Shown here: positions 1,746-32,731 of the stretch, piece after piece | Layout: each line of letters starts with the position of its first letter | Position numbering within the stretch: position 1 is the first letter of the stretch | Assembly (NCBI GenBank): GCA_947631545.1 | Contig: CANRLS010000010.1 | Coordinates: 1 to 32,731, forward strand | Direction: 5' to 3' | From: an uncultured Atopobiaceae bacterium | Lineage (GTDB): Bacteria > Actinomycetota > Coriobacteriia > Coriobacteriales > Atopobiaceae | DNA length: 32,731 bases | The notes under the pieces: generated by a model | The model's input: only the letters and a program-made list of their open reading frames with translations | The model's database searches: none | What the model was told of the DNA's origin: nothing | Translations under genes and position numbers: made by a program

Positions 1746-3992
1746 TCAGCCCTCCACGGCGCGCCAGCCGATCCCCTCGCCCTTCCAGCCGAGGCCCTCG
1801 AGGACGCTCTCCTCGTTCTTCGACGTCGTCCAGAGATGGCTGCCGAGTCCGCCGTCGGCCGTCATGTTGGGGTTGTAGAGCCTGAAGACGTCGATGCCCC
1901 CCGCCACCGGACCGTACCAGGCGATTCCCTCGGACTTCCAGCCGAGGGCGATGAGCCGGTCGGCCTCGACGGCCGACGCCGTGAAGAAGTGGCCGCCGTT
2001 GCTGGGGTTGTAGAGCCGGTAGACCGCCTGCTCGCCCGTGCCCACGGAGGCGTACTCCTCGAAGCAGGTCCCCTCCTCATCCCAGCCCAGCCCGGAGAGC
2101 GTCTGGTACTCCACGAGGCTCGTCGTGAAGAGGTGCTCGCCGCTGCTCGGGTTGTAGAGCCGGTAGACCTTCACGGTCTCTTGCACGGGGCTCTCCGAGG
2201 TGGTGAGGGTGATGCGGCCCTGACCCGCAGGGTCGGCGTAGGCCTGGCCGATGGTGCCGCCGAGGTCGTCTCGCAGGTAGCGCACGAGGGCGTCGTAGTC
2301 GAGCCCCACGTCGGGCTTCACCGGGGTCGCATCGGCGAACATCGTGTAGTCGCCGCCGAGGATGATCGGGATCGTCGTCATCGTGTAGGTGGCGCTCGGG
2401 TCGATGGGCGCCCCGCCCACGGTGACGTCGCGCACGCGGCGCTCCATGGAGGGATCGACCGACTCGAAGCCGCCATCCGAATTCTCGATCACGGGCGTGG
2501 GGATGTCGACCCGTGCGGTGAAGCTCAGACCCGACACCTGCAGGAAGGAGCCCTCGGCCTCGGTCTCGTCATCGAAGGCGGGCGTGAGGGCGCGCACCGA
2601 GTACTCGAGGGCGTCGAGGATGTCCTGCCCTTTGACCTCCACGACCGAGAGCGTGTTCGCGAAGGAGTTGATGGAGATGAAGTCGTTGTAGGTGAAGGGG
2701 CCCGCGGCGAAGCCGAAGGTGCCGTTGGAAAGCGGTGTCACGGCCGTCTGGGGCGCGCGGATGCCGCCGCCGTTCACGAACGCCACGTCGGAGTCGAGGA
2801 GCGAGCGGTAGGCGTCCGCGACGTAGTCGCCGAGGTTCGTCTCGTGCATGCGGGCGGCCCACCACCAGGGGTCGCCCTCGTCGTTGGGGGCGTAGACGGA
2901 AAGGCCCACCTGGGAGGTGCCCACGACCTGCTTGAGCTCCTGGTCGAGGGCGTCCTGCTTGGCCTGGACGGCCGCGGCGACGGTCGGGTCCTGGGGCGCG
3001 GGCTGGTGCAGGTCGCTCGCTTGGACGATGCCGCTCTGGATGTCGTCGGGGCCGGGGTCGGCATCGGGATAGAGGTACATCTCGCCCATGGCCTGGAACT
3101 GCGTGCCGCACTGGGCGATGGGGATCTGCGCCCCGTCCTCGTTGGGGACGGTCGTGTTGTAGATCTGGTGGGTGTGGCCGTCGATGACCGCGTCGATGCC
3201 GGTGGTGTGGGCGACCACGGCCGTGGAGGTCCAGCGCTCGGGCACCGAGGAGCTCGCGTCCTTGCCGAGGTGCGTCACGGCGATCACGTAGTCGGCGCCC
3301 TCGGCGCGGGCCGCGTCCACGGTGGTCTGCACCTGGTCGTAGAGGGCCTCGCCGCTGTCGTCGCCGTAGAAGCTGTAGATGGTCTGGCCGCTCGCGTCCT
3401 CGAAGATCGAGGGGTCGGATCCCGTGAGGGTCGCGGGCGTCGTCACGCCCACGTAGGCGACCTCATACGTTTGGCCATCGACCTCGTAGGAGAGGATCCT
3501 GTAGCCGTCGAAGAGCGGCTCTCCCGTCTGGGTGTTCACGACGTTGCAGCTCACGTAGGGGTAGTCGGCCGTGCCCTCGAGCGCCTGGAGCTGGGCGATG
3601 CCGTAGTCGAACTCGTGGTTGCCGGGCACCGCGATGTCGTAGCCCGAGACGTTCATGAGGTCCACGAGGTCCTGGCCCTTGGAGAGCGTGCCGATGGGCT
3701 GGCCCTGGATGGCGTCGCCGGCGTCGACGAGGGTCACGTTGGCCGCTCCGTAGCTCTCCTTCGCCTCGCTCGCGTACTGGGCGATGCCGGGATAGCCGAT
3801 GGCCGTGGCCGAGGTGGCGAGCCCCGAGCAGTGCACGTCGTTGGAGTGGACGATCACGATGGCGTGCTCGGCGGCGGGTGAATCCTCGGCCTTGGCGGCG
3901 AGGGGCGCTCCGACGAGCGCGGCGAGGACGAGGGCGAGCGCGAGGGCCACGGCGCCCTTGGGCGCATGGCGATGGCGGGCGGCGTGCGGCAT
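1746..3992 (-). CDS. Secreted bifunctional 5'-nucleotidase/2',3'-cyclic phosphodiesterase family protein with C-terminal DUF5648-type repeats
   Basis: The 748-residue protein starts at an ATG with a GGGAGT site upstream. It begins with a Sec signal peptide (MPHAARHRHAPKG, a hydrophobic core, then AAKA). The calcineurin-like metallophosphatase domain shows the metal-ligand blocks SNDVHC, DAGDAIQG, VPGNHEFDYG, VTHLGKD and DGHTHQ. The 5'-nucleotidase C-terminal domain follows, with ETNLGDYVADAYR, NGGGIRAP and FLQVSGLSF. Residues 609-656, 657-701 and 702-748 are three repeats of the form RLYNP...H.FTTS...L..LGW..EG. The enzyme should release phosphate from extracellular nucleotides or cyclic nucleotides. 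The repeats replace a usual LPXTG or SLH anchor and may bind the cell surface. Its tandem neighbour at 4135 is a paralogue, but the two have separate terminators and start sites. Confidence 0.92.
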   Translation of the reverse strand: MPHAARHRHAPKGAVALALALVLAALVGAPLAAKAEDSPAAEHAIVIVHSNDVHCSGLATSATAIGYPGIAQYASEAKESYGAANVTLVDAGDAIQGQPIGTLSKGQDLVDLMNVSGYDIAVPGNHEFDYGIAQLQALEGTADYPYVSCNVVNTQTGEPLFDGYRILSYEVDGQTYEVAYVGVTTPATLTGSDPSIFEDASGQTIYSFYGDDSGEALYDQVQTTVDAARAEGADYVIAVTHLGKDASSSVPERWTSTAVVAHTTGIDAVIDGHTHQIYNTTVPNEDGAQIPIAQCGTQFQAMGEMYLYPDADPGPDDIQSGIVQASDLHQPAPQDPTVAAAVQAKQDALDQELKQVVGTSQVGLSVYAPNDEGDPWWWAARMHETNLGDYVADAYRSLLDSDVAFVNGGGIRAPQTAVTPLSNGTFGFAAGPFTYNDFISINSFANTLSVVEVKGQDILDALEYSVRALTPAFDDETEAEGSFLQVSGLSFTARVDIPTPVIENSDGGFESVDPSMERRVRDVTVGGAPIDPSATYTMTTIPIILGGDYTMFADATPVKPDVGLDYDALVRYLRDDLGGTIGQAYADPAGQGRITLTTSESPVQETVKVYRLYNPSSGEHLFTTSLVEYQTLSGLGWDEEGTCFEEYASVGTGEQAVYRLYNPSNGGHFFTASAVEADRLIALGWKSEGIAWYGPVAGGIDVFRLYNPNMTADGGLGSHLWTTSKNEESVLEGLGWKGEGIGWRAVEG

Positions 3993-4134: not shown

Positions 4135-6426
4135 CTACTCCGCTGCGAGGGAGTGCCAGGCCTCGCCCTCCGGCCGCCAGCCGAGCGCGGTGAGGGTGTC
4201 CCGCTCGTTGACGCTCGTCGTCCAGAGGTGGTTGCCCAGGCCGTCGTTGTCCGTCTGGTTGGGGTTGTAGAGCCTGAAGGTGGGCGACGCGCCGGTCGCG
4301 TCGGAGAGCGCGCCGTACCACGCGATATTCTCGTACACCCATCCGATGCCGCGGAGCGCCTCCCGCTCTCCCTCGGAAGCCGTGTAGAAGTGGTCGCCGT
4401 TGTTGGGGTTGTAGAGCCTGAAGACCGGATCATCACCGCTTTCGGCGTCCGCATGGGCGCTGAAGTGGGCCCCCTCGTCCTTCCAGCCGAGGGAGGAGAG
4501 GACCTTCACCTCGTTCTCGTCCGCCGTGAGCAGGTGCGCTCCCGCAAGGGCGGGGTTGTAGAGGCGGTGGATGCGGAGGGTGGCGCCCTCGGACCCACCC
4601 GGCAGGTCGCCTTCGGGCTCGGCCGGCAGATCGGCGTCCGGCTCATCCGTTCCCTCGTCGGGCGTCTCCGTCGCCTCGTCATCGGTGTCGGGCGCAGGGG
4701 CGGGGGCGGATCCGCTGGAGCCGCCCGAGGAGCTGGAGCTACCCGAAGAGCTGGAGCTGCCGCTGGACGAGGCGCTCGTGATGACGATCCGACCCTCCGT
4801 GCCCTGGTAGCGGCTGTCGATGACCCCGTTCAGCCCCTCGAAGAGGTAGGTGGCCAGCGCTTCGTAGTCGAGTCCGTACTCCTCGCCCTCCACGCGGGTC
4901 GCCTGGGCGAACTGGCCGTAGCCGTCGCCGCCGTTCGCGAGGAACGAGGACGTCGCCACCGTGTAGGTTTTCGAGGGGTCGAGGGGAAGGTAGCTTCCGC
5001 TCTCCGTATCGAAGACGGACACCTGGATCGAGCCGCCGCGAGCGTGCATCTTCACGCCCGAGACCTGGAGGAACCTCTTGCTGCCCGCGCTATTGCTCGA
5101 CTGGGCGAGAATGCTCCTCAGCGTCTCCCCCGTCATCTCCAGCTTGTGGATCTCGTTTCCAAAGGGGTTGATGTCCATCAGCATGGTCGTCGTGATGGCG
5201 CTGTCGGCGGGGATGGCGCCGCCCGAGGCGATGCTCGGGGAACCGATCCCGCCCGCGTTCACGAGGCCCACCTCCGCGCCGGGCACGACGAAGCGGTAGG
5301 CGTCGGCGACGAAGTTGCCGAGGTTGGTCTCGCGGCTGAGGGCGCTCACCTGTAGGGCGACGTCGGTCCTTCCCGTGGCGCCCTGCGCCGCCTCGTCCTC
5401 GACCTTCGCCACGAGGGCGCCGACCTCCTGGAGCGCCGCGTCCTTCGTGGAGGAGGAGGCGTAGGTGATCGTCGAGGCGATGTCGGCAGGGCTCGCCTTC
5501 CCGGACGGGGTGATCACCATCGTGCCGTAGGCCTGGAAGTACTGGCCGCTCTGCGCGATGCGGATCTGCTGCCCGTCTCCGTTTCGGGCGGTTCCGTTCA
5601 CGACCGCGTGCGAGTGACCGTCGATGACGGCGTCCAGGCCGCGGATGGCCGAGGCGAGCGAGCCGCCCGATCCGTGGTGCATGACGGCGATCACGTAATC
5701 CGCGCCGGCCGCCTTGGCCTCATCGACGGACTCCTGCACCCGTGCGGCCAGGTCGGAGCTATGGAAATCCCAGGCGAGCTGGCCATCCTCCTGGAAGATG
5801 CTCGGGTTCTCCTTCGAGGGCGTCTCCGGCGTCACCGCGCCCACGAAGGCCACGGAGACGTCGCCGAACTCGAAGAGCTTGTAGCCGTCGAAGAGGGACT
5901 CCTGCGTGTTCATGTTCGTGACGTTGCTCGCCACGTACGAGAACGTCGAGGCCACGCTCGTCGCGTAGTCGCCCTCGCCCTCGACCTGGGCCAGCTCGTT
6001 CAGGGAGCGGAGCTGCTCGATGCCGTAGTCGAAGTCGTGGTTGCCCGGCACGGCGAGGTCGTAGCCCGAGGCCTTCATGAGCTCCACGATGTCCTCGCCC
6101 TCCGAGAAGGCGCCCAGGGCCGAGCCCTGGATGGTGTCGCCGGCGTCGACGAGCACGACGTTGCCCTCGCCATAGCGCTCCTCGAGCGCCGCCTTGGCGC
6201 CGGCGATGCCGTCGAAGCCCACGGCCGAATCGCTGGCCGTGAGGCCCTTGGCGTGGATGTCGGTGGTGTGGAGGATGACGATGGGCTGCGGGGCGTCCGA
6301 GCCGTCCTGGGCCTCGTCCGCCAGGGCGACGCCCGGCGTGAGGCCCAGCGTGAGGGCGAATCCGAACAGCAGCGCGAAAAGGGCAAGGAGGGCGCGTCCC
6401 TTTGGATGCGTCGACCTGGTGATCAC
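4135..6426 (-). CDS. Secreted 5'-nucleotidase family phosphoesterase with Ser/Gly and acidic linker plus DUF5648-type repeats
   Basis: The 763-residue protein uses a GTG start at 6426, with a GAGGAGG site at 6437-6443. A signal peptide (MITRSTHPKGRALLALFALL, ending near VALADEA) is followed by a metallophosphatase domain with HTTDIHAKG, DAGDTIQGS, VPGNHDFDYG, MHHGSGG and DGHSHA. The 5'-nucleotidase C-domain follows, with ETNLGNFVADAYR, NAGGIGSPS and FLQVSGVKM. Residues about 550-615 are a serine/glycine tract and then a Pro/Asp/Glu-rich spacer, absent from the paralogue at 1746. Three RLYNP/GW repeats occupy about 619-667, 668-715 and 716-763. The third repeat (DGLGNHLWTTS) closely matches the third repeat of the paralogue, which supports tandem gene duplication. 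It probably hydrolyses extracellular nucleotides; substrate choice cannot be read from the sequence. Confidence 0.92.
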   Translation of the reverse strand: MITRSTHPKGRALLALFALLFGFALTLGLTPGVALADEAQDGSDAPQPIVILHTTDIHAKGLTASDSAVGFDGIAGAKAALEERYGEGNVVLVDAGDTIQGSALGAFSEGEDIVELMKASGYDLAVPGNHDFDYGIEQLRSLNELAQVEGEGDYATSVASTFSYVASNVTNMNTQESLFDGYKLFEFGDVSVAFVGAVTPETPSKENPSIFQEDGQLAWDFHSSDLAARVQESVDEAKAAGADYVIAVMHHGSGGSLASAIRGLDAVIDGHSHAVVNGTARNGDGQQIRIAQSGQYFQAYGTMVITPSGKASPADIASTITYASSSTKDAALQEVGALVAKVEDEAAQGATGRTDVALQVSALSRETNLGNFVADAYRFVVPGAEVGLVNAGGIGSPSIASGGAIPADSAITTTMLMDINPFGNEIHKLEMTGETLRSILAQSSNSAGSKRFLQVSGVKMHARGGSIQVSVFDTESGSYLPLDPSKTYTVATSSFLANGGDGYGQFAQATRVEGEEYGLDYEALATYLFEGLNGVIDSRYQGTEGRIVITSASSSGSSSSSGSSSSSGGSSGSAPAPAPDTDDEATETPDEGTDEPDADLPAEPEGDLPGGSEGATLRIHRLYNPALAGAHLLTADENEVKVLSSLGWKDEGAHFSAHADAESGDDPVFRLYNPNNGDHFYTASEGEREALRGIGWVYENIAWYGALSDATGASPTFRLYNPNQTDNDGLGNHLWTTSVNERDTLTALGWRPEGEAWHSLAAE

Positions 6427-25983: not shown

Positions 25984-27666
25984 ATGGCCATCTCGAGCCC
26001 CATCGCCCGCCGCACCTTCCTCAAGGGATCCGCCGCCGTCCTCGCCATGGGCGCCCTCGCGGGCTGCGGGGGCACCGACATGAACGAGGCGCTTCAGGAG
26101 AACGCCGCCAAGGAGGAGAATCCCGCCCTCGGCGAGGGCGATCCCAGCGTCGTGGCGCGGGCGTACCTCGCGAACCCCACCTGCATCGACCCCTACGACG
26201 TCCAGGAGCGCTACGGCTTGGAGGTCACGGCGCAGCTCTTCGACCCCTTGACCTCCTACAACTACGAGACCGGCGAGCTGGAGCCCCTCGCCGCACGGGA
26301 ATGGACCTCCAACGAGGACGCCACCGAGTTCAACTTCCATCTGGTCACGGGCGCCACCTTCGCCAACGGCGAGCCGGTGACGGCCGAGGCCTTCAAGCGC
26401 GCCTGGACCCGCATCGTCGATCCCCAGACCAACCCCACGACCCCCTCCGCCATCGCCTACCGTCTCGCGATGGTGAAGGGCTACCAGGAGCTCGCCGACG
26501 GCGAGGCGACGGACTTCACGGGCGTCCTGGCCCCCGCGGACGACCTCCTCGTCGTGATGCTCTCCGCCCCCTACGCCGACTTCCCCTACGTCTGCAGCCT
26601 CCCCGCGCTCTCGCCGGTCCCCCAGGCGGCCCTCGACGACCCCGGCGAGTTCTGGCTCGCGCCCATCGGCAACGGCCCCTTCATGATGGACGGGCGCTGG
26701 GAGGACGGCCAGGAGATACGCGTCGTGCGCTACGACGGCTACTACGGCTTCACCAAGGCCACCATCCAGGGCGTGGACTTCAGCATCAAAAGCGACATGG
26801 AGACCGGCTGGCGCTCGTTCAAGGCCGGCAACCTCGACCTCTGCGAGGTGCCGGCCCAAGAGATCGGGCAAGCCATAGAGGACTACGGCGAGTCGGAGGA
26901 CGGCTACACGGTGACTCCCGGCCATCAGGTGCTCACCGGCGAGGAGATGGGGACCTATTTCCTCACCGTGAACAACGAGGATGGCAAGCTCTCCGATCCC
27001 GAGCTCCGCAAGGCCATCTCCCTCGCCATCGACCGCCAGGCGATCTGCGACGCGATATTCCATGGGAGCAGGACGCCGGCCGACAACATCGTCCCGCCGT
27101 CGATGGCGGGCTACGAGCCCGAGGCCTGGCCCTATGCCCGCTATGACAAGGAGGAGGCCGAGAGGATCATCGAGGAGAACGGCTTCGAGGGCACGGACAT
27201 CGAGCTCGTCTGCGACGCCGAGGGCGGCCACGAGGAGATCATGGCCATGATCCAGGCCGACCTCGCCGCCGTGGGCATCAACGCGACCATCGATACGCGG
27301 GAATGGGCGGCGATGCTCGACGACTACGCGGCGGGCGACTACCAAGTGGGCCGCCTGAGCTGGTACGCCGACTATCCCCTCCTGGACGACTTCCTCTATC
27401 CGCTCTTCAGCTCGGAGAGCGCGGACAACCGATCGCGCTACGACAACCCCGTGGTGGACGGGGCGATCCGAGACGCCCGCTCCATCGTCGACGACGACGA
27501 GCGCACGGCCGCCCTCCAGGAGGCCAACCGCCTGATCGGGGAGGATTGCCCGGTCATCCCGATCATGTACTTCAGCGCGGGCCTGTGCGGATCGAACCGC
27601 ATCATCGACCTTCGCTGCGATCCGAACGGGATCGCCCGCTTCGCGCTCGCCCAGATGCGCGCCTGA
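25984..27666 (+). CDS. Oligopeptide-binding (SBP family 5) lipoprotein with Tat-type signal
   Basis: The 560-residue protein has an AAAGGA site before its ATG. The N-terminus ARRTFLKGSAAVLAMGALAG followed by C28 combines a twin-arginine motif with a lipobox, so it is predicted to be exported folded and lipid-anchored. The mature part is a family-5 solute-binding protein: ALDDPGEFWLAPIGNGPFMM, YYGFTKATIQGVDF, SDPELRKAISLAIDRQAICD and SWYADYPLLDDFLYPLFSSE. These proteins bind oligopeptides for ABC importers. No permease or ATPase gene is nearby, so it is an orphan binding protein. It precedes the RiPP-like precursor genes on the same strand but is separated from them by a hairpin. Confidence 0.93.
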   Translation: MAISSPIARRTFLKGSAAVLAMGALAGCGGTDMNEALQENAAKEENPALGEGDPSVVARAYLANPTCIDPYDVQERYGLEVTAQLFDPLTSYNYETGELEPLAAREWTSNEDATEFNFHLVTGATFANGEPVTAEAFKRAWTRIVDPQTNPTTPSAIAYRLAMVKGYQELADGEATDFTGVLAPADDLLVVMLSAPYADFPYVCSLPALSPVPQAALDDPGEFWLAPIGNGPFMMDGRWEDGQEIRVVRYDGYYGFTKATIQGVDFSIKSDMETGWRSFKAGNLDLCEVPAQEIGQAIEDYGESEDGYTVTPGHQVLTGEEMGTYFLTVNNEDGKLSDPELRKAISLAIDRQAICDAIFHGSRTPADNIVPPSMAGYEPEAWPYARYDKEEAERIIEENGFEGTDIELVCDAEGGHEEIMAMIQADLAAVGINATIDTREWAAMLDDYAAGDYQVGRLSWYADYPLLDDFLYPLFSSESADNRSRYDNPVVDGAIRDARSIVDDDERTAALQEANRLIGEDCPVIPIMYFSAGLCGSNRIIDLRCDPNGIARFALAQMRA

Positions 27667-27930: not shown

Positions 27931-28101
27931 ACGGCCGCAAGAGGCCCGAGCAGCCGCGCGGCCCGGCGTCCCAGTGAGGGCCTTTCTGCGATGCGCCGCC
28001 CACCTGCGCGGACGTGGCCGCGCGAGGAGAGAGGCCCTTCATCAACGTCCCGTATCCCGTAACGAACGCATCGGAGCCGCGCCGCAGCCCCTTCGCCGCC
28101 G

Positions 28102-28123
28102 ATCCCCAGAGTGGCAGGGGGAT
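28102..28123 (+). promoter_or_regulatory. Inverted repeat ATCCCC-N10-GGGGAT, candidate operator/promoter of precursor copy 1
   Basis: ATCCCC and GGGGAT are perfect arms separated by ten bases, 55 bp before the first ATG. The right arm abuts GATACTATT, which contains a loose -10-like hexamer, but no -35 box stands at the right distance. An activator- or repressor-controlled promoter is possible. The only base that differs between the two repeats is in the spacer of this element. Confidence 0.35.
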
Positions 28124-28162
28124 ACTATTCGCCAAGCGGCTCGCAGTGAAAGGAGCATGACG

Positions 28163-28537
28163 ATGGGCGAGAACCTGAAGGCGATCCTCAAGGCGATCAT
28201 GGCGGACGACGACTTGAGGAGAGCCTACGAGGCGGATGTCCTCGACGTCTCCGGCAGGGCCTACGCCGAGGCGCTCCTGGCCTTCGCGAGCGACCATGGA
28301 TTCGAGCTCACCGCGGCCGACCTCGAGGGGGCGGGTGCGCCGGCCGGCCATGAGCTCGCAGAGGACGAGCTCATGGCCGTCACGGGCGGCGGCGCGGCCA
28401 ACGACTCCTCGCATGGCTGCGGCGAGGCGTTGGCCGCCGTCGACGACATCTCCCAGGGCTGCGGCACGCCGGCGGTCATCAGCGTCATGCAATCCTGCGG
28501 CTTAAACGTGTTGAAGGTCTTCTTCCCGGAATCGTAG
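28163..28537 (+). CDS. RiPP-like precursor peptide, Nif11-type leader, copy 1 (124 aa)
   Basis: AAAGGAG at 28149-28155 is only one base before the ATG at 28157 but seven bases before the ATG at 28163, so the latter is chosen. Residues 1-76 form a Nif11-type leader: ENLKAILKAIMADDDLRRAY, AYAEALLAFASDHGFELTAA, then ELAEDELMAVTGG. The TGGG at 74-77 is a double-glycine cleavage site. The 47-residue core from about residue 78 has three cysteines, each followed by glycine (C86, C100, C112), and ends FFPES. Serines lie three residues before C86 and C100. Such precursors are matured to thioether or other crosslinked peptides and exported by peptidase-containing ABC transporters; none is in the window. 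The product type is unknown. Confidence 0.82.
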   Translation: MGENLKAILKAIMADDDLRRAYEADVLDVSGRAYAEALLAFASDHGFELTAADLEGAGAPAGHELAEDELMAVTGGGAANDSSHGCGEALAAVDDISQGCGTPAVISVMQSCGLNVLKVFFPES

Positions 28538-28570
28538 CCCCGATGCGATCGGAGCCCGGTGACTGCCACA

Positions 28571-28588
28571 CATTCCGGGGGCGGAATG
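28571..28588 (+). terminator. Hairpin after precursor copy 1
   Basis: CATTCCG and CGGAATG form a perfect 7-bp stem with a GGGG loop, followed by ATCTCTTCC. It lies between the two precursor genes, just outside the repeat, so copy 2 lacks it. A smaller CCGAT-GCG-ATCGG hairpin at 28540-28552 follows the stop in both copies. Confidence 0.55.
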
Positions 28589-28648
28589 ATCTCTTCCGAG
28601 CTGGATCCCGGCGGTCATCGGAATCGCGTCGCCGCCCCTTCGCCGCCG

Positions 28649-28670
28649 ATCCCCAGAGTGGCTGGGGGAT
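28649..28670 (+). promoter_or_regulatory. Inverted repeat ATCCCC-N10-GGGGAT upstream of precursor copy 2
   Basis: This is the copy-2 counterpart of the element at 28102-28123, with both arms intact and the single A-to-T change in its spacer. Because it is duplicated with the gene, each precursor probably has its own control region. Confidence 0.35.
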
Positions 28671-28709
28671 ACTATTCGCCAAGCGGCTCGCAGTGAAAGG
28701 AGCATGACG

Positions 28710-29084
28710 ATGGGCGAGAACCTGAAGGCGATCCTCAAGGCGATCATGGCGGACGACGACTTGAGGAGAGCCTACGAGGCGGATGTCCTCGACGTCTCCG
28801 GCAGGGCCTACGCCGAGGCGCTCCTGGCCTTCGCGAGCGACCATGGATTCGAGCTCACCGCGGCCGACCTCGAGGGGGCGGGTGCGCCGGCCGGCCATGA
28901 GCTCGCAGAGGACGAGCTCATGGCCGTCACGGGCGGCGGCGCGGCCAACGACTCCTCGCATGGCTGCGGCGAGGCGTTGGCCGCCGTCGACGACATCTCC
29001 CAGGGCTGCGGCACGCCGGCGGTCATCAGCGTCATGCAATCCTGCGGCTTAAACGTGTTGAAGGTCTTCTTCCCGGAATCGTAG
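28710..29084 (+). CDS. RiPP-like precursor peptide, Nif11-type leader, copy 2 (124 aa)
   Basis: The protein is identical to that of copy 1 in every residue, with the same AAAGGAG site (28696-28702) favouring the ATG at 28710 over 28704. Leader, TGGG site and the three Cys-Gly pairs of the core are unchanged. Most multi-precursor RiPP loci carry variable cores behind a conserved leader; identical cores suggest gene dosage or a very recent duplication. Unlike copy 1, no strong hairpin follows within 60 bp. Confidence 0.82.
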   Translation: MGENLKAILKAIMADDDLRRAYEADVLDVSGRAYAEALLAFASDHGFELTAADLEGAGAPAGHELAEDELMAVTGGGAANDSSHGCGEALAAVDDISQGCGTPAVISVMQSCGLNVLKVFFPES

Positions 29085-29114
29085 CCCCGATGCGATCGGA
29101 GCCCGGTGACTGCC

Positions 29115-29331: not shown

Positions 29332-32300
29332 CTACGAGGTGGCCCTCAGACCCCACATGGTAGGGGCATGGACCTTCCAACCCTGGGCCATGCGCGCGTC
29401 CACCTCGGACTTCTGGATCGTCCAGAGGTGCGTGTCCACGTCCGCGTTCGGGTTGAAGAGGGTCGTCACCTCGACGTTCGCGGAATCGTCGGCGGCGCTC
29501 CAGATGGCGCTCGTCTCGCCGTCCATCTGCCAGCCGAGACCGGTCAGGACGGAAATCTGATAGGCGTCGCTCTCCTTCACGAAGCAGTGGTCGCCGTTCG
29601 AGGGGTTGTAGAGGCGGAGGACTTTCCAGGCCGCGGCCTCGCTGCCGCCCTTCGGCGCGTACCAGGCCGGCTTGCCCTCGAAGTCGACGTCCCAGCCGGC
29701 TGCCCTCAGCTCGGAGACCTCGTTCGTGTCGGTGGTGTAGAGGTGCTGGAAGCCGTGCGGGTTGTAGAGGCGGTAGACGGCCAGGGGCTCCCCAGCCGTC
29801 TCACCGGTGAAGTGGATCGCGTAGGTGACCGTGGCCATGTCCTTGCCTCCCTTGCCGGCGGTTACGACTTGGAAGGAGGCCGTCCTGCCGATGAGCTCGC
29901 CGATATCCGCAACCGTCGGCGTCTCGCCGTCGGTCTGAAGGGACGCGGTGGGCACGGCAGCGACCAGGCAATCGATGCCGAACCGGTCGATCTGCGCGGC
30001 GGTCGCGCCGATGAGGTTCAACGTGATGGCGCTGTCCTGGAGGCTGGTCGCGGTGGCCGTCACCGCACCGGCGACGCTCACCTTGCCGAGCATGGTGCCG
30101 ATGACGGCGGTGGCCATCTGCGAGATCGTGGCCTTGCCATCGATGACCTCGACGCTCCATCTGACAGTCGCCACGCCCGTGGACGGGTCGACTGTGGAGA
30201 CGGCGGCGGCCACCTCTGCGTAGTCCCTGGTCGCATCCGCGATGGCCCCTTGGGTGGCGGAGCTGGTGGTCGCGCTGGCGATGCTCTCGACGGTCGGGGG
30301 CACAGGCTTCCCAGTCCCGGTGCCGGGGCCGCCCGACCCGCCCGAGCTGCCGCTTCCACTCGATCCGCCGGCTCCGCCATCACCCGAACCCGACTCGGGC
30401 CGCGCGAGAGTGAGCCCGCCGACGGCGGCTTCGAGCGCGGCATCGACCCTCGCGATGTCATCGGGCGTGGCCAGCGGATCATCGAGAACCTTCACGGCGT
30501 CATCGAGAGCGCTCCTGTAGGCCCGCCACGAGCCCTCCGTGTACCTTCCGTCATTCTCGATGCCGTAGGTGCGCATGCATTCGTCCACCAAGGCCCGCAC
30601 GCTCGTCTTGCTGGGCTCCTCCACGTGGACGATCGCCGACTTCACGGTGAGCGCCGGATAGAGGGGCGCGAGCGGGCTCCCAACGGAGAAGGTTCCCGTG
30701 ATGGTCCCCGAGGTCGCCGTGTCCAAGACTTTGAAGCCTCCGACGCCATCGGCCGTCGCCGCGCCCACGGGCGAGAGGGCGAACTCGCCCGGTACCGAGG
30801 CTTTGAGCTCGGTGAAGGGACCGTCGATGCCCTTGAAGCTATGGTCGAGCGCAAGGGCGAAGGCACCTCCGGGTTCGACGCTCGACGGCTCGGCGCTCAC
30901 CGTCAGATCCTCGAGCGGCTGCGGGGAGATCTTCACCCAGCGCTGGGTGCCCAGCGCGGCGTACTCCTCGCCAGAGGCGGCGCCTTGCGCGATCGCCCCG
31001 GCGAACCCCTCGAGCACGTTCCCGTTCGTCTCGAGGCTGTCGGGATCGGTCGGGATGGCGCCCGTCGTCAGCCCTGTCGCCGCATCGGCGCCGTCCGTAT
31101 AGCTCTGTGCGAGCCAGGGATAGAACGTCTCGCCGCTCCCCGTCGCGATGGTCGGGTTGACACCGACGGGCCCTCTGCCCGACCCGTATATCGAACCCTC
31201 CGTCTTGCCGAAGGCCGGTCTCGGAGACCCGTTCGTGGACCCGCCGACGGCTATGACGGTCGGACCCTCGGATGCCGCGGCCGGCTCCACCGACTTGTCC
31301 GGACTCCCCTTCTGGATCGTGATCCTGTCCGCGTGGATGCCGTTCGCGCCCCATGTGTCCCCGGACGCGTTCTTCCCGACGGCCACGGTGGTGCCGCCGT
31401 AGAAGTTGGCGCTTCCGTATTCGTTCACGTAGACGCCGTCGGTCGGGTTCCCGCCGGCCCTGCCGAGGGCGAAGAGCCTCCCACCGTAGACGTTGAGGGC
31501 GCTCGCCCGATCATGGCCGTCGATGATGATGCCCGCTCCGCCGGAACCGCTGTCGGGAAGGTGCGTCGCGGTGAGGTCGCCCGGCCCGTAGACGTTGACG
31601 ATAGCGACGCCCTCGCCCTGGGGATACTGGGGCCCGAGGTGGATGGTGCCGTTGCAGTTTGCCCCGATGAGCGTGAGGCTGCCAGCGCCGCGGAAGTTCA
31701 GCGTGATGGTCTCCACGTCGTTGTAGGGGCTGATGATCGGCCAGTTGTTGTAGCCGTTGTTGTTCCCGTCGCTCACGATCTCGTTGCTTCCCACGCTCTC
31801 GATGGTGAGGGCGCCTCGGTTGCCCGGATTGATGACGGCACCGAAGAGCTCGCCAGCGTCCTGGCTCTGGCCGAGCTCCGTCTTGCCGTTGATCGTGGAA
31901 CTGGTGGAGATGGACGAGAGGTCGCCTTGCGCCACGCCGTCGAGGACGATCGTGCTCCCCCACTCGCCCGTCGGGGCCGCCTTGTTCGCGCCCCGGATGG
32001 CGTAGCTGCCTCCGCCGTGGATCCGAGATCCGTTCTCGACGACGAGGGTGCATCCCGGTATCCCCTCGTTGGTGAGCTGCACGGCGGGATGCGTGCCGTT
32101 TCCCTCGAGTGTGATGCCGTCCAGCGTCAGCCTCCCGGAGTATCCCGAGAGGTCGAGGTTCGTCACCGTGGCGCCGGAGGCGCCTGTCGCGTCAGGGGCG
32201 GCCGTTACCCGTATGTCCGCCGCCGGGAACCCGCCGCTCGGGTTGTCCACCGTCGCGATGCCCGTCTTCGCGTCGAACGCCACGCTCGTTGCAGTGGCGC

Positions 32301-32469
32301 TCGGAACGTCGGAGAGCTGCCCGCCGTCGGAGCGGAACGAGAGCTGGCCCACCCGGAGGTCGGCTGCGGAGGCCGATGCGAGCGTCGGCGCGATGAGAAT
32401 GGTTGCGAGCAGGAGCGTCGCGACGCAGGCGAAGACCCGGGCGACGTCCAGTCCGCGCGTCCTTCCCAT
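29332..32469 (-). CDS. Large secreted surface/adhesin-like protein with FIVAR-like region and DUF5648-type repeats
   Basis: I choose the ATG at 32469, with a GGAAGGGG site, giving 1045 residues; the frame opens 35 codons earlier without a good start. A signal peptide (MGRTRGLDVARVFACVATLL and on to ASASA) is followed by about 400 residues of beta-strand, Gly/Asn-rich sequence (LDGITLEGNGTHPAVQLTN, NVYGGRLFALGRAGG) that looks like a right-handed beta-helix. Residues about 640-685 (YTEGSWRAYRSALDDAVKVL) match a FIVAR sugar-binding helix pair. A Gly/Ser linker spans about 693-723. Three RLYNP/GW repeats fill about 898-949, 950-1000 and 1001-1045; the last is degenerate (LFNP). There is no LPXTG motif or C-terminal membrane anchor. 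It probably binds host or wall glycans. Confidence 0.85.
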   Translation of the reverse strand: MGRTRGLDVARVFACVATLLLATILIAPTLASASAADLRVGQLSFRSDGGQLSDVPSATATSVAFDAKTGIATVDNPSGGFPAADIRVTAAPDATGASGATVTNLDLSGYSGRLTLDGITLEGNGTHPAVQLTNEGIPGCTLVVENGSRIHGGGSYAIRGANKAAPTGEWGSTIVLDGVAQGDLSSISTSSTINGKTELGQSQDAGELFGAVINPGNRGALTIESVGSNEIVSDGNNNGYNNWPIISPYNDVETITLNFRGAGSLTLIGANCNGTIHLGPQYPQGEGVAIVNVYGPGDLTATHLPDSGSGGAGIIIDGHDRASALNVYGGRLFALGRAGGNPTDGVYVNEYGSANFYGGTTVAVGKNASGDTWGANGIHADRITIQKGSPDKSVEPAAASEGPTVIAVGGSTNGSPRPAFGKTEGSIYGSGRGPVGVNPTIATGSGETFYPWLAQSYTDGADAATGLTTGAIPTDPDSLETNGNVLEGFAGAIAQGAASGEEYAALGTQRWVKISPQPLEDLTVSAEPSSVEPGGAFALALDHSFKGIDGPFTELKASVPGEFALSPVGAATADGVGGFKVLDTATSGTITGTFSVGSPLAPLYPALTVKSAIVHVEEPSKTSVRALVDECMRTYGIENDGRYTEGSWRAYRSALDDAVKVLDDPLATPDDIARVDAALEAAVGGLTLARPESGSGDGGAGGSSGSGSSGGSGGPGTGTGKPVPPTVESIASATTSSATQGAIADATRDYAEVAAAVSTVDPSTGVATVRWSVEVIDGKATISQMATAVIGTMLGKVSVAGAVTATATSLQDSAITLNLIGATAAQIDRFGIDCLVAAVPTASLQTDGETPTVADIGELIGRTASFQVVTAGKGGKDMATVTYAIHFTGETAGEPLAVYRLYNPHGFQHLYTTDTNEVSELRAAGWDVDFEGKPAWYAPKGGSEAAAWKVLRLYNPSNGDHCFVKESDAYQISVLTGLGWQMDGETSAIWSAADDSANVEVTTLFNPNADVDTHLWTIQKSEVDARMAQGWKVHAPTMWGLRATS

Positions 32470-32643
32470 GGCGCCCCTTCCGGCCGACTGCCACCGATGC
32501 CAAATCGGCAGCCAGTCTAGATGGAGCCGCCGGGCGCGACCGTGCGATGCCGCCCGGGCACACCGACGACACAACCCTTGACGGCTTCCAGTCGATGCCC
32601 GTACGTCGCCTCGCGCCCCGCACGAATACCCGCCAGAGACGAA
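32470..32643. other. Intergenic region between the surface-protein gene and tRNA-Val
   Basis: This 174-bp stretch should contain the promoter of the minus-strand surface-protein gene. A TAGACT hexamer on the minus strand (plus-strand AGTCTA at 32515-32520) is a possible -10 box, but no matching -35 box is apparent. No other gene is visible. Confidence 0.3.
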
Positions 32644-32681: not shown

Positions 32682-32731
32682 TGGTGGGCGATGCTGGATT
32701 CGAACCAGCGACCCCATCCGTGTGAAGGATG
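32682..32731 (-). tRNA. tRNA-Val(CAC), 3' part
   Basis: Read on the minus strand, the sequence contains an anticodon arm CATCC-TTCACAC-GGATG with anticodon CAC, a GGGTC variable loop, a T-arm GCTGG-TTCGAAT-CCAGC and an acceptor strand ATCGCCC-A followed by an encoded CCA. The 5' half lies outside the window. Anticodon CAC reads GUG valine codons. Confidence 0.92.

Follow-up and report, generated by a model that had tools for sequence, protein, structure and literature searches.

Nif11-derived peptides (N11P, TIGR03798) and their processing at a Gly-Gly site were described in 2010 by Haft, Basu and Mitchell (PMC2887384), and the same work showed that in Eggerthella lenta, a coriobacterium, Nif11-leader precursors adjoin the same NHLM exporters as those considered here. 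In prochlorosins, Nif11 precursors are scattered or arranged in tandem and a single enzyme serves them in trans (PMC10783134), and a paper naming Nif11 together with SPASM mentions Nif11 in a spliceotide setting only. We scrutinized a 32,731-nt stretch of DNA (the window) from an uncultured Atopobiaceae bacterium, which constitutes contig C10 of a 1.74-Mb assembly (136 contigs, 98.4% complete) and carries a tandem pair of TIGR03798 precursors. Since such precursors, their NHLM adjacency, and the trans organization of prochlorosins have all been described, the window pair belongs to a known kind. Its leader family, the end of similarity at Gly-Gly, a variable Cys-containing core, large paralogous sets, and NHLM in the genome all agree with N11P (PMC2887384). 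Unlike the systems of that report, the window pair lies far from any exporter or enzyme gene, and its core resembles none found outside the genome.

Each of the two ORFs encodes a 124-residue protein, and their 372-nt coding parts do not differ. The tandem identical precursors and the Nif11-type leader, both reported by the first-pass annotation of the window, were borne out by repeat analysis and profile search. Against TIGR03798, the leader scored 39.9 bits (E 3.6e-10), passing the curated cut-off of 32.3, and both copies were recovered at 39.5 bits in a six-frame search of the genome with this model; the broader, shorter Pfam Nif11 model gave 18.4 bits, below its cut-off of 23.8. The ATG is placed at a good distance from a Shine-Dalgarno sequence (GAAAGGAGCATGACG-ATG), and G+C at codon positions 1/2/3 (0.67/0.46/0.91) constitutes a strong coding signature. 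A start 6 nt upstream is possible, but is disfavored because it would crowd the Shine-Dalgarno. The two 499-nt repeat units match at 494 bases, all five mismatches falling within the first 48 nt. As a unique 48-nt spacer parts the units, we regard them as two genuine gene copies and no assembly echo; the spacer and the mere five mismatches together mark the duplication as real and recent. On direct reading, the spacer holds a small inverted repeat (CATTCCG-GGGG-CGGAATG); a scan found no terminator-like site, and a consensus search returned no sigma-70-like promoter for the pair. Beyond the Shine-Dalgarno and first codons, the window pair had no conserved upstream motif in common with the genome's other precursors.

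Table 1. Coordinates of the features discussed in the text. Plain numbers are window positions; locus identifiers refer to other contigs.
Feature	Location	Strand	Basis or remark
Precursor gene copy 1, 124 aa	28163..28537 (including stop)	+	TIGR03798 match, codon-position G+C, Shine-Dalgarno
Precursor gene copy 2, 124 aa	28710..29084 (including stop)	+	coding DNA same as copy 1
Tandem repeat unit 1 (upstream region, gene, and 30 nt beyond stop)	28069..28567	+	494/499 vs unit 2
Tandem repeat unit 2	28616..29114	+	494/499 vs unit 1
Unique spacer between repeat units, 48 nt	28568..28615	.	read from sequence
Shine-Dalgarno AAGGAG	28150..28155 (copy 1), 28697-28702 (copy 2)	+	read from sequence
Oligopeptide-binding lipoprotein SBP_bac_5, stand-alone, without own permease	25984..27666	+	Pfam; directly upstream of precursor pair
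Large proteins with C-terminal DUF5648	1746-3992, 4135-6426, 29332-32574	-	
Partial tRNA	32685-32731	-	cut by contig end; sole Rfam match
C1 tandem precursors	L020:3094-3396, 3541-3846	-	
C59 precursor and module	L021:1825-7683		
Short Gly-Gly peptide with conserved tail	L025:2856-3044	+	
Short Gly-Gly peptide with conserved tail	L017:10586-10837	-	
C36 radical-SAM protein	L032:3-1145	+	TIGR04340

The double-glycine site and Cys-bearing core noted at first pass were likewise found. VTGG occupies residues 73-76 of the VTGG|G site, dividing a leader (1-76) from a core (77-124; GAANDSSHGCGEALAAVDDISQGCGTPAVISVMQSCGLNVLKVFFPES) of 48 residues if cleavage follows the second Gly, or the originally cited 47 if it follows the third. 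The three Cys residues of the core lie within a loose repeat of the type S-x-G-C-G / S-C-G. Among the paralogues of this genome, too, Gly-Gly ends the conserved part and a variable core lies downstream. In a model of the window precursor built on a nine-row alignment, the leader was ordered and the core had low confidence, its helices (pLDDT ~50 or less) carrying no meaning; no solved structure matched the prediction (best E 2 or worse). No relatives of the precursor were found in contigs of 84,980 species or in plasmids, phages, and viral contigs, sets that may omit this genome or its near relatives. None was detected for the core outside its own genome, and PHROGs gave chance-level matches only.

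The window genes scanned with Pfam have housekeeping, transport, and surface functions, DUF5648 surface proteins among them; LanM, radical-SAM, YcaO, and C39 exporter genes did not turn up, in keeping with the earlier reading that the pair has no RiPP enzyme or exporter nearby. Non-genic fragments flank the pair. The lipoprotein directly upstream shares 68% identity with the operon-encoded copy on C25 and is possibly a peptide receptor or partner of the precursor pair. In a search for the empty site in sister species, their oligopeptide-binding genes proved to be orthologues of the operon copy on C25, not of the window copy. Two of the three large DUF5648 proteins are tandem 5'-nucleotidases, and the DUF5648 domain apparently serves this genome as a surface module. 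The window also ends in a partial tRNA (Table 1).

With a profile built from paralogue leaders, ten Nif11-leader ORFs were found on seven contigs (two each on C10, C1, and C108; one each on C11, C18, C31, and C59), a count that leaves out a C93 match with an internal stop codon and a weak C23 match. The C31 ORF lacks part of its N-terminus, and the contig ends within one of the C108 ORFs. Only the C18 and C108 ORFs adjoin an enzyme gene; most Nif11-leader genes of this genome are unlinked, and the lack of a maturase in the window tells little for genes of this kind. Paralogue leaders are 42-98% identical to each other, the window leader being 42-54% identical to the rest, and most cores align no better than shuffled sequences. 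The window and C59 cores share a stretch, GC-x-TP..SV..SC-x-L (shuffle p 0.0014, ~0.011 after eight comparisons). The C59 precursor is followed by genes for an ABC ATPase, an FtsX-type permease, an OmpR-family regulator, and a SapS-like kinase, a layout that resembles peptide-antibiotic immunity modules and hints at antibacterial activity. On C1, two tandem precursors have almost the same DNA throughout the leader and in most of the upstream region, similarity is gone within a few codons of Gly-Gly, and the cores are unrelated; a leader-end/core remnant (DEPLALVAGGCSYCQDNFIQYC) lies behind the pair. This pattern looks like recombination of a promoter-plus-leader module. In contrast to the C1 pair with its differing cores, the window duplication took in the core as well.

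Prochlorosins and synechococsins (PMC10783134) are organized alike: their many precursors pair a conserved Nif11-type leader with a hypervariable core and are scattered singly or in tandem, mostly away from the enzyme; a shared trans enzyme is known in that case and presumed here. Unlike in prochlorosins, no LanC-containing enzyme was found, and the candidate maturases are several radical-SAM enzymes, not one LanM. Four related radical-SAM enzymes are encoded on C18, C37, C43, and C108, those on C108 and C18 directly downstream of Nif11 precursors. The enzymes exceed the PF04055 cut-off; PF13186 (SPASM) is above its cut-off on C108 and C37 and under it on C43. Many NCBIfam radical-SAM models match, but no equivalog cut-off is reached, so that a chemistry cannot be assigned. 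The nearest solved sequences are SkfB, PqqE, SuiB, MoaA, and CteB.

A structure model of a relative from a Synergistaceae contig had a mean pLDDT of 89.4. Residues 5 to 441 superposed on SuiB (382-384 aligned, rmsd 4.3-4.5, Z 24.2-24.6) and residues 9 to 434 on SkfB (350 aligned, rmsd 5.0, Z 26.6). SuiB and SkfB possess N-terminal leader-recognition (RRE) domains. From these two superpositions, within a list of structure matches that hardly probes outside residues 92-462, the N-terminal part of the modeled enzyme appears to resemble that leader-binding domain. The overall fold, with an N-terminal domain, a radical-SAM domain, and a C-terminal Cys cluster region, is shared with SuiB (streptide), SkfB (sactipeptide), and CteB (ranthipeptide). 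Unlike those enzymes, the ones described here reach no equivalog cut-off and none adjoins the window pair; the clustering of precursor and radical-SAM/SPASM maturase that characterizes sactipeptides, ranthipeptides, and other radical-SAM RiPPs is absent from the window pair and is seen beside the C108 and C18 paralogues. C36 encodes a further radical-SAM protein that scores 522 bits against the ACGX-system model TIGR04340 (cut-off 400) and represents a separate peptide-modification system.

Export machinery is also encoded elsewhere in the genome. The NHLM export locus on C2 encodes ABC1 with a C39 peptidase (902.1 bits, cut-off 853.3), ABC2 (725.5, cut-off 709.4), and a partial HlyD-like protein, and a second ABC1/ABC2 pair, both members under their cut-offs, lies on C34; the C39 peptidase matches of the genome fall on C2 and C34. 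With NHLM export loci and radical-SAM enzymes on other contigs, this genome is not an orphan of machinery. The initial proposal of a new orphan RiPP class is not supported, given also that the leader falls within the published TIGR03798 family, whereas maturation in trans, which the first-pass annotation had offered as one alternative, gains from the NHLM/C39 exporters and the Nif11-linked radical-SAM enzymes. Its suggested genome-wide search for maturases and C39 transporters was productive for exporters and radical-SAM enzymes and returned neither LanC nor YcaO. The tail DSRLxMGxIRxKPRIK is conserved in two short Gly-Gly peptides, one encoded next to the NHLM export locus and the other on C93, where several more short Gly-Gly peptides lie nearby; the two may represent a further peptide family handled by that exporter.

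Comparable linkages occur in other genomes. In sister species, a precursor is followed by a C18-type radical-SAM enzyme (L066, L068, L077) or by two C37-type enzymes (L075, L076), and precursors at L078 and L080 adjoin an NHLM ABC2 gene 86-88% identical to that of C2. Beyond this family, too, Nif11-leader ORFs adjoin full-length relatives of the enzymes, namely in Synergistaceae, Ruminococcaceae, other Clostridiales, and Lachnospiraceae. Precursors beside the same radical-SAM family in Clostridiales (L110), Atopobiaceae (L112), and Lachnospiraceae (L115) carry paired motifs of the type W-C-x-x-(D/N)-(Y/F)-x-C, possibly a substrate signature. Across 140 genomes of the family, 30 of the 32 with a Nif11 leader also encode NHLM ABC1 (Fisher p 1e-16) and 16 of the 32 encode a member of the radical-SAM family (p 1e-7), the other 16 having none; excluding the window's own genus, the counts are 26/27 (p 1e-15) and 11/27 (p 2e-5), all p values ignoring shared ancestry. 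The NHLM exporter is consequently the constant partner of Nif11 leaders and the radical-SAM family a frequent, not an obligatory, one.

On balance, we favor the interpretation that the window pair encodes unlinked RiPP precursors modified by a radical-SAM enzyme in trans, cleaved at Gly-Gly, and exported, yielding an antibacterial peptide or a signal. The ~76-residue leader would act as a recognition tag to which a shared maturase from another locus binds; this maturase is most likely one of the four radical-SAM enzymes and would probably cross-link the Cys-containing core before export. An NHLM-type ABC exporter would then use its C39 peptidase to cut after Gly-Gly and would export the 48-residue core, and the recent tandem duplication would raise gene dosage. 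The product may act outside the cell, most likely as an antibacterial peptide or a signal. Leader removal and export by machinery in trans are well supported as predictions from sequence; modification of the core, its chemistry, and the activity of the product are what we infer beyond that. Counting against a radical-SAM enzyme are the lack of a maturase linked to the window pair and the 42-54% identity between its leader and those of the paralogues.

The tighter co-occurrence of Nif11 leaders with exporters than with radical-SAM enzymes leaves room for the main rival, export without modification, in which the leader serves Gly-Gly cleavage and export only and what the NHLM/C39 exporter releases is a 48-residue bacteriocin-like or signaling peptide, unmodified, with its three Cys free or disulfide-bonded. 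That no enzyme gene adjoins the pair agrees with this, and the lone upstream oligopeptide-binding lipoprotein could serve as a re-import receptor. However, paralogous precursors with homologous leaders directly adjoin radical-SAM enzymes, and modifying enzymes classically take Nif11 leaders as their substrates (PMC2887384); we consider unmodified export unlikely.

Still less probable is modification of the core by another type of enzyme, for example an ATP-grasp protein, a cyclase-less dehydratase, or a flavoenzyme, encoded elsewhere or in the missing ~2% of the genome. Our search covered the LanC, YcaO, SPASM/radical-SAM, and C39 families, and the Ser/Cys spacing of the core (SHGC, SQGC) would suit lanthionine rings, but no LanC-like protein (PF05147, LANC_like) was matched in this 98.4%-complete genome and no YcaO exceeded its cut-off in six genomes of the genus. 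A YcaO candidate in a 1597-aa frame (19.5 bits over 23 positions) was judged to be noise. A prochlorosin-type lanthipeptide and a thiazole/oxazole-modified peptide (TOMM) were rejected, the former for want of a LanM/LanC synthetase and the latter for want of YcaO in the six genus genomes. Although the truncated C31 copy and the C1 remnant testify to decayed relatives and non-genic fragments surround the window pair, we give little credence to the idea that it belongs to a fast-turnover family and, recently duplicated, is out of use or in decay, as both copies are intact and identical with a good Shine-Dalgarno and strong codon-position bias.

Trans modification by radical-SAM enzymes, the reading we prefer, may tentatively be extended to the genus, one of bacteria with small genomes, although we would not yet bet on it. 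A few related radical-SAM enzymes, in place of LanM, would modify many unlinked Nif11 precursors in a prochlorosin-like combinatorial system, with new precursors arising as a promoter-plus-leader module recombines before a new core; the window pair would then stem from the recent amplification of one member. This genus-wide radical-SAM version with leader-module turnover is the less certain reading. If one enzyme does modify many unlinked cores, the system would be the radical-SAM counterpart of prochlorosins. A single genome here offers four candidate radical-SAM enzymes and two NHLM exporters for the one precursor pair, which turns what looked like an orphan into a testable system. Sister species additionally contain arrays of Nif11 precursors (L069, L070, L071, L072, L074, L078, L083), up to six per 3.5-kb stretch, that have one Cys-rich core type, C-x-C-x-x-I-G-A-x-K-G-C-G-C-F...GGGK, very different from the cores of the window's genome.
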